Assembly: GCF_001870225.1 (NCBI RefSeq) | Contig: NZ_CP017675.1 | Span: forward strand, 2,289,517 to 2,348,570 | Reading direction: 5' to 3' | Source: Gloeomargarita lithophora Alchichica-D10 | GTDB taxonomy: Bacteria > Cyanobacteriota > Cyanobacteriia > Gloeomargaritales > Gloeomargaritaceae | Length of the DNA stretch: 59,054 nt | In this document: piece after piece, positions 9,109 through 49,980 of the stretch | Numbering within the stretch: the first letter of the stretch is position 1 | Layout of the letters: the number at the start of each line of letters is the position of its first letter | Program-made: the position numbers and the translations under genes | The notes under the pieces: model-generated | Databases searched by the model: none | The model's input: only the letters and a program-made list of their open reading frames with translations | What the model was told of the DNA's origin: nothing

Positions 9109-10842
9109 CGATCAATCAATCAGACGATGGACAGGCGGGAAAATCGCCGGTTTGCCATTGGGTATTGGTGCTGGGCAGATTCTCAGTTCGTAAAACTAAG
9201 GGTTCAGTCAATGGGGTGGATGCTGAGGCTTGATTCACAGGTACGTTTACGCACAAAAGAGCTTCAGGGAATAAGACCGCTTCACCCATATCCGATAAAT
9301 CTCGCCATTGCCGGTCATTGAAATTGAGGGTAAAGGTAACGGATTCGGTGAACGATGAATTGGGTAATCCGGGAATCAATGGCGCACCCACTTTATACAA
9401 GAAACCATTGCCAATAAATAAAGCAGGCTGGGGAAATGTCGTCTTAAATTGTTGCAAACCCCCCAACACAGCCCAACCATTCACATTGTCTTGGGGACTG
9501 GTGGCATAGACTAAAAATGTACCGCCACTGGTTAAAGCAGTAACACCTACATTGTTGATAAAGTTATCATCTGCAACCAAAGTAATATCATTAGTTGCAG
9601 TAATACTCTTATTGACGATAATATCCCCAGTCAGAGCTTGTAGAAATACACTATTAGCGTTTTCAATGCCATCAGGATTGACAATGCCTACGGTCAAGGT
9701 CTGGCTATTGACGAACTTGAGATCACCTGTAATGTCAGCGGCAATGATGTTAATCAAGTTACTGGGTTCAGTTAAAATTACATCACCCGTACCCAACAAA
9801 GCCAAACCATCGGCAGTAATTGCTTGCGTCTGAGTAACCGTATTTTGAGCAGTCAAAGTGACATTACCAGTGGTGTTAATGCCATTTGTTGCATTTACAG
9901 TGCCGATCTCAAACCCATTGGTATCGGTGTATTTGATGGTGTTAGTCGTGTTAGCGGCAAGGGTGGCTACATCATTATTGGTATTAGTTAGAGCATACAA
10001 TCCATTGCCAAGCAACTCTAATCCACTAGCAAATAAACCACCTACATTATTTTGCGTGACACTTGCAGGAGAGGTAATAGTAATATTATTGGTAGTTTTG
10101 ACTGTGACATCCTTGAAGATGATGACGTTGTTGGTGGAGGTGAAAGTAATTTTGCCAGTGGTATTATCGCCGATGGTGATGTCCCCATTCCCAATACGGA
10201 TAGCATCAGCCCCACTTGTACCTGTACCCGTGTAATTAATACCCCCATTAGTGCTGGTGACCTGCGTTGCACCGCTCAGAAAAATGCCGAAGTTGCCACT
10301 ACCTGTGCCATTGCCGCCCGTGCCTGTATAGGTGATATTGCCTGTGGTGGTGGAGACTTTTGCCCCATCACCTTGAACAATACCATAGTTGCTACTACCT
10401 GTACCATTTCCGCCACCATTACCAGTGATCTTGATTTCTCCAGTGGTGGCAAAAATCTTGGTATTTGTATCTAACACATTGACACCGAAGTTATTAAATG
10501 TCCCATTACCACCCTCACCTGTGTAAGTGATATTGCCGCTTGTACTTGTTACTTCTGCACCAGCACGTTGATGAATGCCATAATTATCGCCACCAGTATT
10601 TCCGCCTGTGCCAGTGAGCAGGATATTACCGCCTTGAGTAATAAGGGTGGAGTTGTCTAATTTAATCCCCACAAAATTTCCTGTGGCTGTGCCTGCGGTG
10701 TTCGCATTAAAGACGATCGCATCAAATCCTGTATTGGTGCTAGTATTTTTTATCTCCACCCCAGAATTGACCACGATATTTTTGCTGGCATCTACGGTGA
10801 TGGTTGATGTACCTGTGTCGTTATTGGTGATGTTTTTGGAGA

Positions 10843-10943
10843 TATAGCAATATGACACGATTTACGAACAGAAATTCCACAGAACCAAGGGCGGGGGCGG
10901 TGCCCCTGCGACCGCTATTCTAAACCCAATTAGGATTGCTATA
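10843..10943. mobile_element. Type B element inserted in the adhesin gene
   Basis: Ends TATAGCAAT and ATTGCTATA are perfect 9-base inverted repeats, and TA flanks both sides. The core GGGGGCGGTGCCCCTGCGACC forms a hairpin. No coding capacity. On the adhesin strand it carries the stop codon that ends the 5' piece. Confidence 0.9.
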
Positions 10944-16290: not shown

Positions 16291-16413
16291 TATAGCAATC
16301 CTAATTCAATTTTGAACAGCGGTCGCAGGGGCGCCGCCCCCGTACTTGGTTCTTCTGAATATTTGTTCGCCAAATGGCTACGCCACGCAGGCTATCGGGT
16401 GGGATTGCTGTTT
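16291..16413. mobile_element. Type B element upstream of the adhesin gene
   Basis: Left end TATAGCAATCCTAATTCAAT, core GGTCGCAGGGGCGCCGCCCC, decayed right end GGGATTGCTGTTT. A partial type A end (GACACCTCTA) precedes it near 16249. It sits in the 222-base gap between the divergent ends of the adhesin and Uma2 genes. Confidence 0.75.
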
Positions 16414-43475: not shown

Positions 43476-43556
43476 AAAAAACCTCGGCGACAAGGTAAAA
43501 GGAAAAGCCAATTTTTACCATAGCCAGTTCCCCGTCCCCAGATGGTTAAGCCCCGG

Positions 43557-44279
43557 TTAAGTTTCCGGGCTAATTGCCCAGCGAATTTGGCGGATCATGC
43601 CCCGCAAAAGTGCTAATTCCTGCGCCGATGGTGCCGCACGTTGCAGTAAATTGCGAATTTTCGCCATGCGCCGCTCGCGGGTGTGGGGGTGCAGATAGCC
43701 CACATTTAGCAACAAATCTTCTAAATCCAGCACATAGGCTTCGAGCACTTCGAGGGGAACCGGCGATACCACCATCGTTTCGGGGGCGGCCTGGGCTGGC
43801 TGGTGATATTGATAAATTTCGTAGAGGCAAATCCCCACCGCCTGCGCCAAATTCAGGGACGCATACTCCGGGCTGGTGGGCAGGGTCACCCGCCGTTGGG
43901 TCAACTGCAATTCCGCCCAGGTGAGTCCCCGGTCTTCCGGCCCAAATACCAAGGCCACCGGTTGCGTTGCCGCCAACAACCAGGGCAATACCTGTTTGAG
44001 GGGTTCGCCGGGGGGGGTACGCCCCAGGGTGGTCACCGCTCGGGTACAGCCGCTTAACGCCGTCATCAGGTCAGGGACAACCCGCGCCTGGGTGAGAATT
44101 TCCGGGGCATGGACGGCCATCCGGCGGGCGGGTTCCCCCAACCAATCACACCGGGGTTGGACTAAAATCAATTCCTGCACCGCAAAGTTTTTCATCACCC
44201 GGGCGATGGCTCCCACATTCAATTCCCCCGCCGGTTCAACCAAAATAATCCGCACCGGGGGCAGGTTTGTCTCATTCAT
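43557..44279 (-). CDS. trmJ: TrmJ-like tRNA 2'-O-methyltransferase (SPOUT class)
   Basis: 240 residues. The SPOUT trefoil motifs are visible: VEPAGELNVGAIARVMKNF (motif 1), VALVFGPEDRGLTWAEL (motif 2) and PTSPEYASLNLAQAVGICLY (motif 3, SAM-binding knot). The C-terminal helical extension (VGYLHPHTRERRMAKIRNLL) is the TrmJ-type tail; TrmJ methylates nucleotide 32 of tRNAs. Lies 20 bases downstream of the last DUF29 gene on the same strand. Confidence 0.85.
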   Translation of the reverse strand: MNETNLPPVRIILVEPAGELNVGAIARVMKNFAVQELILVQPRCDWLGEPARRMAVHAPEILTQARVVPDLMTALSGCTRAVTTLGRTPPGEPLKQVLPWLLAATQPVALVFGPEDRGLTWAELQLTQRRVTLPTSPEYASLNLAQAVGICLYEIYQYHQPAQAAPETMVVSPVPLEVLEAYVLDLEDLLLNVGYLHPHTRERRMAKIRNLLQRAAPSAQELALLRGMIRQIRWAISPET

Positions 44280-44299
44280 GGGAAGCAGTTATTGGAGTT

Positions 44300-44758
44300 T
44301 CAGGGAAACCAATTTTCATCTAGGGCTTGTTCTAGGGTAAATTGTGGTGCCTCAGGAATCAGATTTTTATCTAATTCACTTGCATCCAAAAATAAGTTTC
44401 TGCCCTGGTGATAAGCAGATAAATAATTTTCTTGAAGAACATTTTTTAGGCTAGGACTATCTTTCAGTATCACTTTGATTCGCTGACGAAAACTACGAAC
44501 TTCTCGTTTCCAACCCCGCCAACACCTTTCCCGCTCTGATGCCCAGTATTGCATTTTCAATAAATGCTCACATAAACGCATAAGGTAGCTTGTTATTGCT
44601 CGTTTATCACTTTTTCCCAAGCTCTCTACCTCCTCGATTAGATTGGGTAAATCCAGATGGTGAAAATCTTGTTTTTTCAATAAAATTGCCGTCTGCTCTA
44701 GCCACAGAGCAAAGTCGGTTTCGTATAGTTCACTCATCGTTAATTTTGATTCTTTCAT
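44300..44758 (-). CDS. DUF29-family protein (array member 1, most diverged)
   Basis: About 152 residues. N-terminal MSELYETDFALWLEQTAILL and DLPNLIEEVESLGKSDKRAI are the DUF29 signature; the middle carries WRGWKREVRSFRQRIKVIL. The C-terminus (TLEQALDENWFP) differs from its four paralogues, which end in LLNDIFWE or -K. A helical protein of unknown function, widespread in cyanobacteria. The ATG at 44758 sits 7 bases after a GAGGTG that belongs to a type A element. Confidence 0.85.
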   Translation of the reverse strand: MKESKLTMSELYETDFALWLEQTAILLKKQDFHHLDLPNLIEEVESLGKSDKRAITSYLMRLCEHLLKMQYWASERERCWRGWKREVRSFRQRIKVILKDSPSLKNVLQENYLSAYHQGRNLFLDASELDKNLIPEAPQFTLEQALDENWFP

Positions 44759-44762
44759 CACA

Positions 44763-44872
44763 GGACACCTCTATTTATTTGCACTAACAGAAAGTTATCT
44801 CGCTGGAATGCCAGTATTACTGAGAACCAGGGACGGGGGCGGTGCCCCTGCGACCTATTTTTAGAGGTGTCC
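44763..44872. mobile_element. Type A element in the DUF29 array, copy 1
   Basis: 110 bases, GGACACCTCTATTTATTTGC to TTTTTAGAGGTGTCC, with core GGGGGCGGTGCCCCTGCGAC. Differs from copy 2 at 45805-45914 by perhaps one base. Confidence 0.92.
44766..44771 (-). promoter_or_regulatory. Ribosome binding site of DUF29 gene 1 inside the element
   Basis: GAGGTG on the minus strand, 7 bases before the ATG at 44758. It is part of the terminal inverted repeat of the adjacent element. Confidence 0.75.
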
Positions 44873-44877
44873 AATTG

Positions 44878-45336
44878 CTACTCCCAAAATATATCATTTA
44901 ACAACTGTTCAGAGTCAGTGGGAAATGGGCAAATTTCAGGAAATGGATAACTTTGATAATCAGGATTTTCTTTTAATAATAGTAATGCGTCTTGATAGCA
45001 TTCATCAATAATTTGCTGGACATATATTTTTAAGCTGGGTACATCTTCGAGTAATTTTTTAATTTCTTTTTGATTACGTCTAATGGTATCTGTCCAGCCT
45101 CGATAATCCTGAATCAAGTCAGTAAAACATCGCTTCAAACTATGTTCAAACAAGGTGGTTAAACGATTGTACAATTCCCGTTTATCGCTTCTCCCCAAGC
45201 TCTCTACCTCCTCGATTAGATTAGGTAAATCCAGATGTTGAAAATCTTGTTTTTGCAATAAAATTGCCGTCTGCTCTAGCCACAAAGCAAAATCCGTTTC
45301 GTACAGTTCACGCATGGTTAATTTTGATTCTTTCAT
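44878..45336 (-). CDS. DUF29-family protein (array member 2)
   Basis: About 152 residues from the ATG at 45336; the frame opens with a TTG at 45351. The GGAAG ribosome site is built from the last codons and stop of member 3, so the two are co-translated. RELYETDFALWLEQTAILLQ and DLPNLIEEVESLGRSDKREL match the other members; it ends FPTDSEQLLNDIFWE. In the middle it carries DYRGWTDTIRRNQKEIKKLL, closer to member 5 than to 3 and 4. Confidence 0.85.
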   Translation of the reverse strand: MKESKLTMRELYETDFALWLEQTAILLQKQDFQHLDLPNLIEEVESLGRSDKRELYNRLTTLFEHSLKRCFTDLIQDYRGWTDTIRRNQKEIKKLLEDVPSLKIYVQQIIDECYQDALLLLKENPDYQSYPFPEICPFPTDSEQLLNDIFWE

Positions 45337-45341
45337 TACAG

Positions 45342-45800
45342 TTACTTCCAAAAAATATCATTTAACAACCGTTCGACATCGGTAGGAAATGGACAATTTT
45401 TAGGGAATGAGTAGTTTTGATAATCTAAATTTACTACTAACCGTCTTTTTGCCATTCTATAGCAATTATCAAAAACTTCTGACCAATAGCGTTTCAAGCT
45501 GGGAGAATCTTCTAGGCAAATTTTTAATTCATCCTGCTCTCTAACAATAGTTTCTTCCCACCCCCGATAATCATAAGGGCTGTCCACATATTTTCTTTTT
45601 AAGGCGTGTTCCAACAGGGTAGTCAATCTACTTTGTAATTCATGCTTTTGACTTTTGCCCAAACTCTCTACCTCCTCAATTAAATTGGGTAAATCTAGGT
45701 GCTGAAAGTCCTGTTTTTGTAGCAAAATTGCCGTCTGCTCTAACCACAGAGCAAAATCAGTTTCGTATAATTCACTCATGGTTAATTTTAAGTCTTTCAT
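45342..45800 (-). CDS. DUF29-family protein (array member 3)
   Basis: About 152 residues from the ATG at 45800. MSELYETDFALWLEQTAILL, then HALKRKYVDSPYDYRGWEET and FPTDVERLLNDIFWK. Most similar to member 4 in the central region (REQDELK...EDSPSLKRYW, VFDNCYRMAKRRLV). Its ribosome site (GAGGTG) lies in the element at 45805-45914. First gene of the repeated pair 3-2. Confidence 0.85.
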   Translation of the reverse strand: MKDLKLTMSELYETDFALWLEQTAILLQKQDFQHLDLPNLIEEVESLGKSQKHELQSRLTTLLEHALKRKYVDSPYDYRGWEETIVREQDELKICLEDSPSLKRYWSEVFDNCYRMAKRRLVVNLDYQNYSFPKNCPFPTDVERLLNDIFWK

Positions 45801-45804
45801 CACA

Positions 45805-45914
45805 GGACACCTCTATTTGTTTGCACTAACAGAAAGTTATCTCGCTGGAATGCCAGTATTACTGAGAACCAGGGACGGGGGCGGTGCCCCTGCGACCTAT
45901 TTTTAGAGGTGTCC
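45805..45914. mobile_element. Type A element in the DUF29 array, copy 2
   Basis: 110 bases, GGACACCTCTATTTGTTTGC to TTTTTAGAGGTGTCC. Near-identical to the copy at 44763-44872 and placed the same way between DUF29 genes, 1042 bases away. Confidence 0.92.
45808..45813 (-). promoter_or_regulatory. Ribosome binding site of DUF29 gene 3 inside the element
   Basis: GAGGTG on the minus strand, 7 bases before the ATG at 45800, within the terminal repeat of the type A element. Same arrangement as at 44766-44771. Confidence 0.75.
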
Positions 45915-45919
45915 AACTG

Positions 45920-46378
45920 CTACTCCCAAAATATATCATTTAACAACTGTTCAGAATCAGTAGGAAATGGGCAGGTTTCAGACAAGGCATATTTTCTATA
46001 ATCCGAGTTAGCCACCAATCGTCTTTTGGCTAATTGATAACAACTATCGAAAACTTCCAGCCAGTAGCCTTGTAAACTTGGCGAGTCAGCGAGGATGTTT
46101 TTTAATTCATCCTGTTCCCTGAGTATTGTTTCTTCCCAGCCTCGATAATTGTAGGAACTATTCACATACTTTCTTTTTAAGACGTGTTCTAATAGGGTAG
46201 TCAATCTACTTTTTAATTCTCGTCTATCTCTGCCAGCCAAACCCTCTACCTCCTCGATTAAATTAGCTAAATCTAGGTGCTGAAAGTCTTGAGCTTTTAA
46301 TAATTTAGCCGTTTGTTCTAGCCACAGAGCAAAATCAGTTTCGTATAATTCACTCATGGTTAATTTTAATTCTTTCAT
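45920..46378 (-). CDS. DUF29-family protein (array member 4)
   Basis: About 152 residues from the ATG at 46378 (TTG at 46393 opens the frame). The ribosome site GGGAG is the end of member 5. MSELYETDFALWLEQTAKLL, VEGLAGRDRRELKSRLTTLL, and FPTDSEQLLNDIFWE. The AGRDRREL phrase is shared with member 5 and replaces the GKSxKRxL of members 1 to 3. Confidence 0.85.
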   Translation of the reverse strand: MKELKLTMSELYETDFALWLEQTAKLLKAQDFQHLDLANLIEEVEGLAGRDRRELKSRLTTLLEHVLKRKYVNSSYNYRGWEETILREQDELKNILADSPSLQGYWLEVFDSCYQLAKRRLVANSDYRKYALSETCPFPTDSEQLLNDIFWE

Positions 46379-46383
46379 TACAA

Positions 46384-46836
46384 CTACTCCCAAAATATAT
46401 CATTTAACAACTGTTCAATATCAGTAGGAAATGGACATGATTTAGGAAAATCTATGTCATGTTCTATCGTGACAATGGCGAGTGCATCCCCATAGCATTC
46501 ATCTATACAAAGTAGAAAGTAACTTTCTAAACTGGGGGAGTCTTTAAGTAATTTATTGATTTCAATTTGTGTGCGTTTGATGGTGCTTGCCCATCCCCGA
46601 TAGTCATAGGGGTTATCCACATATTTTCTTTTGAGGGCGTGTTCAAATAGGGTGGTTAATCTACTTTGTAATTCTCGTCTATCTCTGCCAGCTAAACCCT
46701 CTACCTCCTCGATTAAATTAACTAAATCAAGATGCTGAAAATCCTGTTTTTGCAATAAAATTACCGTTTGTTCTAGCCAACGGTAATAGTCGGTGTCATA
46801 CAGAGTTGTTAATTCGGAAGCAGGCTGGAATTGCAT
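46384..46836 (-). CDS. DUF29-family protein (array member 5)
   Basis: About 150 residues from the ATG at 46836; the frame extends to 46884 into the mrp gene end, but MQFQPASELTTLYDTDYYRW is the better start. It has a different N-terminus (TLYDTDYYRWLEQTVILLQK) but the usual DLVNLIEEVEGLAGRDRREL and LLNDIFWE. First gene of the array in the direction of transcription, 45 bases after the mrp stop, so the array may be read from the mrp transcript. Confidence 0.85.
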   Translation of the reverse strand: MQFQPASELTTLYDTDYYRWLEQTVILLQKQDFQHLDLVNLIEEVEGLAGRDRRELQSRLTTLFEHALKRKYVDNPYDYRGWASTIKRTQIEINKLLKDSPSLESYFLLCIDECYGDALAIVTIEHDIDFPKSCPFPTDIEQLLNDIFWE

Positions 46837-46880
46837 GGCTCTACGGGCTTTATTCCCATTGTAACCCCTCCCAATGAGCG

Positions 46881-47957
46881 TCAATCTGCTGTCAAGGCCA
46901 AGACCGACACCCGCGCCGCTACCCGCCCCGCCAATTCCCGCAGTGCCACCGCTGAGGCCAATTCCGGTTCAGAAACCACCACCGGAGTTCCCACATCCCC
47001 ACCCACCCGCACGGGCAGTTCTAAAGGAATTTGTCCCAACAATGGTACGCCCAAACTCTTTGCTAACTGGGTGCCGCCGCCGGTTCCGAAAATGGCATAG
47101 CGTTTGTCGGGGGCATCCGGGGGAATGAAATAACTCATGTTTTCCACCACCCCCAGCACCGGCACTCCCAACTGGCGAAACATCTCCAACCCCCGGCGAG
47201 CATCGGCCACGGATACGGTTTGGGGCGTAGTGACAATGACTGCACCGGCCATCGGCACCGCCTGCGCCAAGGTCAACTGGGCATCCCCGGTGCCGGGGGG
47301 TAAGTCCACCAGCAAATAATCCAATTCGCCCCATTGCACCTGGTAAAGAAATTGGCGAATCACCCCGTTGAGCATCGGCCCGCGCCAAATAATCGGTTGG
47401 GTGGGGGTCACCAAAAAGGCCATGGATACCAACTTCACCCCATGATTTTCCGCCGGGGTAAGGACTTCCCCCTGGGGACTGTCGGCCACCACCAGCCGTT
47501 GTTGACTCACCCCCAACATGATCGGGTCATTGGGGCCGTAAATATCCGCATCCAGCAGACCCACCCGGGCGCCGGTTTGCGCCAAGGCCACCGCCACATT
47601 CACCGCTACGGTGCTTTTGCCGACCCCGCCTTTGCCACTGGCAATCGCCACGATATTCCGCACCCCCGGTACCCCCTGGCGTTGGGGGAGGGATTTTTGC
47701 TGGGGCGTTTCCGCCGTGGTGACAATTTCCACCTGCTCAATCCCGGGTAAAGCTAACACCGCCTGCCGACAGTCCTCTTCGATAAATTGCCGCAGGGGAC
47801 AAGCCGGGGTGGTCAACACCAAATTAAACGACACCCGCCCCGCTTCTATCTGTACCCGGCGGATCATATTCAATTCCACCAAACTACGTTGGAGTTCCGG
47901 GTCTTGCACCGGACGCAATACCTCCAGCACCTGTTGGGGGGTGACCGACTGGCTCAT
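46881..47957 (-). CDS. mrp: Mrp/ApbC-type P-loop iron-sulfur carrier
   Basis: About 358 residues from the ATG at 47957 (GAGAGA site upstream; the frame opens at 47996). N-terminal MIP18-like domain (QQVLEVLRPVQDPELQRSLV), then the deviant Walker A IASGKGGVGKSTVAVN, LLDADIYGPNDPIMLG and DYLLVDLPPGTGDAQLTL. The Cys-X-X-Cys found in enteric ApbC after ENMSYF is absent (ENMSYFIPPDAPDKRY), the same as I recall for cyanobacterial and plastid HCF101-type relatives. It carries 4Fe-4S clusters, in plastids towards photosystem I. Confidence 0.9.
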   Translation of the reverse strand: MSQSVTPQQVLEVLRPVQDPELQRSLVELNMIRRVQIEAGRVSFNLVLTTPACPLRQFIEEDCRQAVLALPGIEQVEIVTTAETPQQKSLPQRQGVPGVRNIVAIASGKGGVGKSTVAVNVAVALAQTGARVGLLDADIYGPNDPIMLGVSQQRLVVADSPQGEVLTPAENHGVKLVSMAFLVTPTQPIIWRGPMLNGVIRQFLYQVQWGELDYLLVDLPPGTGDAQLTLAQAVPMAGAVIVTTPQTVSVADARRGLEMFRQLGVPVLGVVENMSYFIPPDAPDKRYAIFGTGGGTQLAKSLGVPLLGQIPLELPVRVGGDVGTPVVVSEPELASAVALRELAGRVAARVSVLALTAD

Positions 47958-48002
47958 AAAATTCTCTCGTTTTCTCGTCCTCTCTCCATTGGGCATGGTA
48001 AC

Positions 48003-48623
48003 CTACTTATCCCCCCGGTGCAGGCTGAATTGGGCACGGGCTTGCACCACCGGGTCTTCATCCTGGGTAAAACCCTGCAAAAGGGCATCCCGGCGGGGTT
48101 GCAAAAAAGCCGGTACATCCCCTGATTGCCACAATTCCAAGGCCACAATCACCCCATAACGAATCCCCCACTCCCCATCCCGGCTTAAATCTTCTAGGGT
48201 CTGCAGTACCTGGGTCTGCGCCGCTGTCGGTTGCGCCAGATCAGACCAGATTATCATCCCCAACCCCCGCAGAGCCGCCCGCCGCACACTGGGGGCAAAA
48301 TCCGACCGTGCCGCCTCTTGCAGTACGCCCAACGCCTGGGGGTCGCCAATTTGCGCCAAAACCCGCAGGGCATAGGCTCTGGCTCCGTAATTGTACCCAT
48401 CCAACCGTGCCAGCAGTTCCGGCACCGCCCGCCGTCCCGCCCGGATTAACCCCTGAACGGCCACCTGTGCCGCCGCCGGGTTGTTGTACCCCAACACCTC
48501 AATCAACCCAGAAATCGCCTCCGGCTGGTCGCTGTGGGGGATTAACTCCTGTACCGCCGCCAGCAAGTCCGCTGGGGATGTAGCCTTTTGCAACCGTCGG
48601 GTCAATTCTGACAATTGGGGCAT
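48003..48623 (-). CDS. cpcF: Phycocyanobilin lyase subunit CpcF
   Basis: 206 residues of HEAT-like repeats. Characteristic phrases are AISGLIEVLGYNNPAAAQVA, LLARLDGYNYGARAYALRVL, QIGDPQALGVLQEAARSDFA and PSVRRAALRGLG. The GYNNP and YNYGARAYA motifs are typical of CpcF, which with CpcE attaches phycocyanobilin to the phycocyanin alpha subunit. cpcE and the cpcBA genes are not in the window, so it is separated from its usual partners. It reads into mrp, 45 bases between. Confidence 0.8.
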   Translation of the reverse strand: MPQLSELTRRLQKATSPADLLAAVQELIPHSDQPEAISGLIEVLGYNNPAAAQVAVQGLIRAGRRAVPELLARLDGYNYGARAYALRVLAQIGDPQALGVLQEAARSDFAPSVRRAALRGLGMIIWSDLAQPTAAQTQVLQTLEDLSRDGEWGIRYGVIVALELWQSGDVPAFLQPRRDALLQGFTQDEDPVVQARAQFSLHRGDK

Positions 48624-48741
48624 ATCGGCAGTTCCACGGTTTCTGACGGCATCTCTAATCTATGACATGGGGGCAAGGGGTTGTTCAGCACCCCCTGATA
48701 AATCGTTTAAGATCAGCCGTGGGGTTCAGGGAGCGCTCAAC

Positions 48742-49980
48742 ATGGCGAATGGGATGACCAACACAGCCATTCTCATCGTGGATGATGACCCCATTACCCT
48801 CAATTTATTGCAAAAATATCTCATCTACCAAGGTTATCAAGTCGGTGCCTTTGCCACGCCGGAAACTGCGCTCACCGCTTTGCAGGAGCAGACCTGGGAT
48901 TTGGTGTTATTGGATTGGTTATTACCGGGCATGACGGGTTTGCAACTGCTCCAACAACTCCGTCAAACCTACCCGCCGGGGGTATTGCCCGTGATTATGA
49001 TTACCGCCCGGGAGGATAGTGCCGATATGGTCACCGCCCTGCACGCCGGAGCCAATGACTATATTGTAAAACCTTTGAATTTACCCATAGTTGTGGCGCG
49101 CATCCAAGCCCAGTTGGCGACCGTGCGGAGCCTCAGTCCACCCACCACTTCCCGATTGGGGGGACGGTACCAAATTCAAAGTCCGTTGGGGGCAGGCGGC
49201 TTTGGTTGTACCTATCTTGCCCAGGATTTGCACCGTCCCGGCACCCCCTTGTGTGTGGTGAAACAATTGTTGGCGATGTCTGTTAATGAATCAGAAAAAT
49301 TGCTCCGGGCACGGCATCTCTTTCACCGAGAAGCACAGGCTTTAGAAACCCTGGGACATTACAAATATATCCCCCGTTTACTGGCCTATTTTGAGCAGGA
49401 TGGAGAATTTTATTTAGTCGAAGAATATATCCAAGGTCAATCCCTAAAAGAGCAATTTACCAGCGGGAAAATTTGGTCGCTTTTAGAAGTTTTTAGCTTT
49501 TTGAAAAATCTCTTAAAAACCCTAAAATTTATCCACCGTCATCAAGTTATTCATCGGGATATTAAACCGGATAATATTATTTATGAACAGGCCACCGGCC
49601 ACTATATTTTGATTGATTTTGGGGCGGTGCGAGAAACCCTGCCTGGAGCCGACCCGGATACCGCCACTATTTCCATTGGCACCCGGGGCTATGCCCCCCT
49701 GGAGCAACTGCTCGGTTACCCGGAATTTAACAGTGATTTGTATGCCCTGGGGATGGTGACCCTCCAGGCATTGACCGGCTTATCGCCCACGGAATTGCCC
49801 TGGAATCACAACACCGGGGAATTGGATTTGACCGCTTGGCAGACCCCCCAAACCACCCATTTATTGAATATCATTCTAGGTATGACCCGGTATTACCCCC
49901 AGGATCGCTATCCTACGGCGGCGGCGGTATTGAAGGATTTGGGTAAGCTGGAACCGGTCTTGCTGCGGTTGATGGAGTAG
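48742..49980 (+). CDS. Receiver domain fused to a Ser/Thr protein kinase
   Basis: About 412 residues from the ATG at 48742 (GGGAG site upstream). The frame opens much earlier over cpcF, but that part is antisense. Residues 5-125 form a CheY-type receiver: acidic D14-D15-D16, phospho-Asp D58 in LVLLDWLLPGMTGLQ, K110 in YIVKPLN. A Hanks-type kinase follows: Gly loop LGAGGFGCTYLAQD, K174, catalytic HRDIKPDN (H271-D273), metal-binding DFG at 292-294, and GTRGYAPLEQLLG as the activation-segment end. No C-terminal sensor domain. The arrangement would let a histidine kinase control Ser/Thr phosphorylation in one protein; the partner kinase is unknown. Confidence 0.9.
   Translation: MANGMTNTAILIVDDDPITLNLLQKYLIYQGYQVGAFATPETALTALQEQTWDLVLLDWLLPGMTGLQLLQQLRQTYPPGVLPVIMITAREDSADMVTALHAGANDYIVKPLNLPIVVARIQAQLATVRSLSPPTTSRLGGRYQIQSPLGAGGFGCTYLAQDLHRPGTPLCVVKQLLAMSVNESEKLLRARHLFHREAQALETLGHYKYIPRLLAYFEQDGEFYLVEEYIQGQSLKEQFTSGKIWSLLEVFSFLKNLLKTLKFIHRHQVIHRDIKPDNIIYEQATGHYILIDFGAVRETLPGADPDTATISIGTRGYAPLEQLLGYPEFNSDLYALGMVTLQALTGLSPTELPWNHNTGELDLTAWQTPQTTHLLNIILGMTRYYPQDRYPTAAAVLKDLGKLEPVLLRLME

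Follow-up and report, generated by a model that had tools for sequence, protein, structure and literature searches.

What can a run of tandem genes from one protein family, punctuated by two copies of the same short repeat, tell us about how such genes are copied and what they do? The question is raised by positions 44300-46836 of a 59,054-nucleotide stretch of the cyanobacterium Gloeomargarita lithophora Alchichica-D10 (contig NZ_CP017675.1, positions 2,289,517 to 2,348,570), which we refer to as the window. A preliminary description made from the letters alone had proposed that five tandem DUF29 genes were duplicated here together with a mini-element, and the inventory itself holds: the region contains five minus-strand open reading frames (ORFs), all of Pfam family DUF29 (PF01724) and each matching full length over all 138 profile positions (136-159 bits, cut-off 22.5), together with two 110-bp elements that are identical at 109 of 110 positions, offset by exactly 1042 bases and lodged in equivalent junctions, g2/g1 and g4/g3. 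The junctions g5/g4 and g3/g2 contain no such element. To our knowledge the DUF29 family has no known function, and none of the open papers that we searched dealt with the family or its function. The array is a real, somewhat unusual set of a known family combined with a known kind of mini-transposon; the new points are the hybrid gene g1 and a link to restriction-modification (RM) genes. Our best explanation overall, to which we give slightly less than an even chance, is that of a lineage-specific array of DUF29 proteins shaped by exchange between gene junctions, the proteins being perhaps accessory partners of DNA-processing enzymes and orphaned at this locus.

Throughout the text we call the genes g5 to g1, starting from the first gene of the array, and the element copies E1 and E2 (Table 1). 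Gene coordinates are counted from ATG codons, and the host genome (G000) is a single contig of 3,049,282 bases. The first 36 residues of a protein are referred to as the head and the residues from 41 on as the body, and the two were placed in separate trees.

A chimeric gene and a probably copied junction

The genes g2-g5 come from one ancestor, and g1 comes from a different DUF29 subfamily with the head of the array. Domain identities among g2-g5 lie between 63 and 73%, and g1 is closest to DUF29 genes of other species. In a 26-protein tree g2-g5 form one clade (98/98) and g1 falls within another subfamily together with ten outside members (100/100). A single clade of all five is rejected by the approximately unbiased (AU) test (p 0.0018 for the whole protein, 1.3e-7 for the body), so the initial picture of five genes forming one duplicated family stands for g2-g5 and fails for g1. 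In the head tree all five array proteins form one clade (99/98), and in the body tree g1 joins 10 members of the other subfamily (100/100); because its head groups with the array and its body with the other subfamily, g1 is a chimera. In agreement with the trees, one run of common silent sites joins g1 with g2 over codons 7-21 (global P 0.0035), and another joins g4 with g5 over codons 38-48 (P 0.0085 with four genes in the set and 0.048 with all five). The termini that had been described as conserved are each present in four of the five genes: the ending LLNDIFW(E/K) is replaced by ALDENWFP in g1, and the start YETDFALWLEQ by YDTDYYRWLEQ in g5. We regard the locus as a clear case in which subfamilies of one gene family have swapped heads, the element pair serving as its marker.

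The element belongs to a very numerous family of mini-transposons that is specific to the genus. Its end motif occurs in 141 exact copies across the genome (0 for a backward control), and a loose first look yielded about 400 whole-element candidates, part of which were scored. Of 39 related genomes, the element turned up in 4, each of them a member of the host genus. A 4-bp target duplication borders 13 of the 29 full-length copies that have flanking sequence, where shuffling predicts 1.2. When E1 is folded as minus-strand RNA, the inverted ends close the whole element (-41.2 kcal/mol, z -4.6). Like bacterial MITEs (miniature inverted-repeat transposable elements, which are non-autonomous mini-transposons), the element is short (110 bp), has perfect 11-bp terminal inverted repeats and hundreds of candidate copies, and shows 4-bp target duplications at the level of the family; unlike them, E1 and E2 were probably copied along with flanking gene sequence and not via two transpositions. 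A second repeat family in the window (10821-10930 and 16304-16413; loci such as L076, L077 and L079) has a GC-rich core in common with the element and other ends, TATAGCAATCC ... GGATTGCTATA.

The two copies within the array are 99% identical, against 95% for the next-best copy among those scored in the genome, and the window contains 20 end-motif matches with at most one mismatch against 0.45 expected; together these figures show that the pair is not a product of chance. Their likeness extends beyond the element into a 163-bp tract, made up of the start of g1, the element and the tail of g2, which differs at only 2 positions from 45793-45955, and in a difference map the near-identity around E1 decays on both sides beyond 44751-44913. 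Since the pair stands at 99% against 95% and near-identity continues past the element, one insertion followed by copying of the junction is the best fit. Gene conversion of the elements, offered as an option in the preliminary description, agrees with E1 and E2 being copies of one event rather than two insertions, and the outcome that it had set against its own proposal, equal distances among the five genes and independent insertions, is not what we see. Junctions that hold the element are longer than empty ones by 114 bp, that is, 110 + 4 by the gene coordinates. The likely source of the short near-identical tract is recombination or gene conversion where genes adjoin. The element would have inserted once; gene conversion between junctions, or unequal exchange, would then have copied it together with the g2 tail and the g1 start, and recurrent junction exchange would homogenise heads and tails and let the middles (helices 3-4) drift apart.

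Two further tandem arrays in the same genome resemble the window array in their homogenised ends and divergent middles and differ from it in having three genes each and short junctions without the 110-bp element; silent divergence is patchy in both. Scaled to the gene mean, the proportion of nonsynonymous differences (pN) in the tail is 0.24-0.87 across the three arrays, whereas dispersed paralogues give 1.17 and single-locus pairs from different species 1.38. Every set evolves fast over codons 73-120, and the dispersed paralogues are also fast at the tail. As the array tails are slow compared with dispersed paralogues and between-species pairs, their conserved ends stem at least partly from junction exchange.

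DUF29 genes beside DNA-processing genes

The role that we propose for these proteins draws on the company that DUF29 genes keep elsewhere. Among 89 fetched loci with a DUF29 alignment (80 from genomes, 9 viral), an RM gene of one kind lies near DUF29 in nine, one of them on the other strand; in the other eight (e.g., L163, L148, L149 and L152) DUF29 lies 11-60 bp upstream of this MmeI-like gene on the same strand. The RM product combines an MmeI-type methylase, target-recognition domains and DUF559 and matches the PADLOC models for type IIG systems, and a gene of the PLD-SNF2 helicase cluster is also found in five of these RM loci. A separate survey with the RM protein across 386 cyanobacterial genomes gave 34 matches, 30 of which were fetched and examined (L206-L235): one to three DUF29 genes lie just upstream in 7 of the 14 loci whose RM gene has its N-terminal domain and in 0 of the 16 without it (P 0.0017), three of the seven positive loci belonging to one genus. 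The window array resembles the MmeI-like type IIG genes and type I RM operons in that they too have tandem DUF29 genes, sometimes of mixed subfamilies; it differs from them in that no RM gene was found adjacent to it. In two loci, two DUF29 genes lie between hsdM and hsdS. Three closely similar viral contigs (L193:4136-6309, L194 and L195) have the order recT-DUF29-yqaJ, with DUF29 overlapping recT upstream and the yqaJ exonuclease gene downstream, on one viral contig DUF29 overlaps a family A DNA polymerase gene, and on a Pseudanabaena plasmid DUF29 lies among BREX-6 (bacteriophage exclusion) genes on the opposite strand. The large tree was built without domain hits under 100 profile positions, and the 21-member clade that holds g2-g5 has three RM-adjacent members. 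DUF29 proteins may be small helical bundles that assist or regulate DNA-processing enzymes as their partners, RM enzymes above all, a weaker proposal than that of junction exchange. On this view the window array would be orphaned and may persist as a reservoir of variants that bind partners or of anti-restriction immunity.

Several results weigh against this account of the history and role of the array. The 4-bp sequences flanking E1 and E2 do not match (CACA vs AATT/AACT), and a constraint that places g1 with its own subfamily in the 36-column head tree is not rejected (p 0.18). The topologies g3+g5 and g2+g4, which duplication of a gene pair would predict, are rejected weakly on the body (AU p 0.032 and 0.045, respectively) and not on the whole protein (0.087 and 0.103). 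As to the role, most DUF29 genes stand alone and not beside RM genes: in a context sample of further loci from the hit list of the relatives, from which the known RM loci of G025, G030 and G012 and the unfetched hits were left out, an RM gene adjoins DUF29 in 1 of 60 loci, and in 4 of 63 when the known loci are added. The query of the RM survey was picked because it adjoins DUF29; the survey genomes were not so picked. The N-terminal domain of the RM gene was not found in the host genome, and neither Pfam nor PADLOC identified an RM or BREX gene among six neighbours of the array that were tested, so that a partner role for these proteins comes from other genomes. We treat this role as a lead from a minority of cases.

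Alternative explanations

DUF29 genes could instead be selfish single-gene units that settle next to host genes and serve no function in the host, with arrays as debris, a reading that we consider unlikely although it accounts for several observations. DUF29 was found in 32 of the 39 genomes surveyed and is common in cyanobacteria; the host genome has 26 matches compared with 0-10 in six sisters of the genus. Two copies in the host genome (1601958-1602371 and 382501-382914) have only a 446-bp unit in common, at 96% identity in unrelated surroundings, and both are flanked by direct repeats, of 49 bp at the first site and 37 bp at the second. At 1601958 the repeat consists of the 3' terminus of an ABC-transporter gene, and in an alignment with the related genome G001 this gene is directly followed by the gene that lies beyond DUF29 in the host, as it is by eye in G003; a search of seven relatives did not find the host gene of the 382501 site. 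From their sequences these two copies look like gene-sized insertions. We set aside long direct repeats as a general rule of insertion: they flank 5 of 120 DUF29 genes and 3 of 232 control genes (P 0.13), a count from which loci with truncated flanks or tandem neighbours were dropped and whose controls were cleaned of genes cut at locus ends. The lack of a significant excess of flanking repeats over controls argues against selfish units, and the window array itself is not bordered by one (score 11.0, shuffle maximum 12.5). DUF29 genes are also not preferentially oriented with respect to the gene upstream (same strand in 82/120, and in 152/232 controls). Further evidence against selfish units is that the frames are mostly open and that, in pairs between species, pN is below its synonymous counterpart (pS), from which it follows that DUF29 proteins are under selection. 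Partial DUF29 matches at 1527057-1527170 and 513657-513932 of the host genome are perhaps gene remnants.

A role for DUF29 as one half of a toxin-antitoxin-like pair, with orphan copies as leftover antitoxins, would fit two plasmid observations: plasmids of 4.9-12.6 kb carry a single DUF29 gene, in three cases with a small ORF directly upstream, and on one plasmid RelE and NadS genes lie close to DUF29. We give this a small chance, because the small ORFs are unlike in kind (two near-identical and weakly coiled-coil-like, one weakly ribbon-helix-helix-like) and none of those on the plasmids exceeds the Pfam cut-off, because a small partner was not found at the window array, where every neighbour is another DUF29 gene, mrp or the SpoU methylase gene, and because no recurrent partner emerged when the ORFs next to DUF29 were read in the genomes of the genus and family. 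There is a slimmer chance that DUF29 genes are gene-sized mobile cassettes which insert at gene ends and duplicate the 3' end of the host gene so that it stays whole, which are recurrently recruited as subunits or immunity factors of RM, BREX and phage recombination operons, and whose arrays diversify by head swaps between subfamilies through junction conversion helped by the mini-transposon copies.

The remaining alternatives concern the array alone. The preliminary description took the unit of duplication to be an element plus a gene pair, multiplied by unequal recombination between elements and followed by divergence. The equivalent placement and 99% identity of the elements speak for this, as does the repeat spacing along the array (578/464/578). 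It nonetheless predicts g3 with g5 and g2 with g4, and the best tree has g2 with g5; g1 is of another subfamily, and the closest identity is limited to the 163 bp around the element. We find this proposal doubtful. Selection for sequence diversity, suggested at the same time, is not borne out, and the idea of a partner-recognition family whose middles are kept variable by positive selection is in our view a poor prospect: codons 73-96 and/or 97-120 are the fastest in arrays and pN exceeds pS in some 24-codon windows (Nei-Gojobori), yet these windows are close to saturation, every segment of g2-g5 has a pooled pN lower than pS, and the middle is also fast in single-locus pairs between species. 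Two independent insertions at the same preferred site, conceivable for a mobile and very numerous element family, are very improbable given that no other copy listed exceeds 95% identity, that the identity runs beyond the element on both sides and that both copies have the same non-matching flanks.

Setting of the array, fold and meaning

The array itself is a lineage-specific set of DUF29 genes placed between mrp and a SpoU-type RNA methylase gene. In the sister genome G005 (83% complete) protein matches of these two genes lie 23 bp apart and no DUF29 match was found; in the sisters G002 and G004 they lie at separate places. The first gene, g5, starts with an ATG at 46836, an in-frame TTG is also present at 46884, and the array is perhaps read through from mrp. 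In a locus of another cyanobacterial family (L261:1876-3430), DUF29 lies 25 bp downstream of a gene that is mrp-like by its start, the same neighbour as that of the window array. Scans for promoters and terminators gave signals no more frequent than chance, Rfam had no match within 43500-47500, g1 matched none of 50,697 annotated phage records, and PADLOC models matched none of the five array proteins at E <= 0.1. The match of the receiver-kinase gene, one of the six neighbours tested, to PADLOC kinase models probably reflects general kinase similarity.

Table 1. Features of the DUF29 array and related loci. Coordinates are those of the window, except for the second and third arrays, which are given in host-genome coordinates.
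Feature	Coordinates	Strand	Description
SpoU-type RNA methylase gene	43557..44279	-	Downstream of array; Pfam
g1	44300..44758	-	Chimeric DUF29: array head, other-subfamily body; PF01724 158.8 bits
Near-identical tract	44751..44913		163 bp, 2 differences vs 45793-45955; g1 start + element + g2 tail
E1	44763..44872	.	Element copy; mini-transposon; junction g2/g1
g2	44878..45336	-	DUF29 ORF; PF01724 139 bits
g3	45342..45800	-	DUF29 ORF; PF01724 144 bits; AlphaFold2 model available
E2	45805..45914	.	Element copy; mini-transposon, perfect 11-bp inverted ends; junction g4/g3
g4	45920..46378	-	DUF29 ORF; PF01724 137.9 bits
g5	46384..46836	-	First gene of array; PF01724 135.7 bits; g2-g5 clade member
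mrp-like P-loop ATPase gene	46881..47996	-	Upstream of array; Pfam
Receiver domain fused to protein kinase domain	48481-49980		Response regulator-type; Pfam; matches PADLOC kinase models
Second tandem DUF29 array, same genome	434665-435984		Three genes
Third tandem DUF29 array, same genome	523137-524449		Three genes

The AlphaFold2 model of g3 has a pLDDT (predicted local distance difference test) of 90.4 and aligns with the solved DUF29 member 3fcn over 131 residues (Z 10.9, root-mean-square deviation 5.6; next chain Z 6.9); for helical bundles, a Z below about 13 does not count as strong. With Foldseek alone the model had no match at E <= 0.001, and the non-appearance of other families in the structure search excludes nothing. 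A likeness to C3PO/translin was weak (Foldseek E 0.5, Z 5.3) and was not used. The model is consistent with the helical fold of 3fcn. The five array proteins are thus like Pfam DUF29 and 3fcn in their full-length matches and in the alignment of the g3 model, and depart from the family in g1, a chimera of two subfamilies. For the family as a whole, the link to RM genes (7/14 vs 0/16 loci), together with the position between hsdM and hsdS, provides a testable hint of the role of DUF29.

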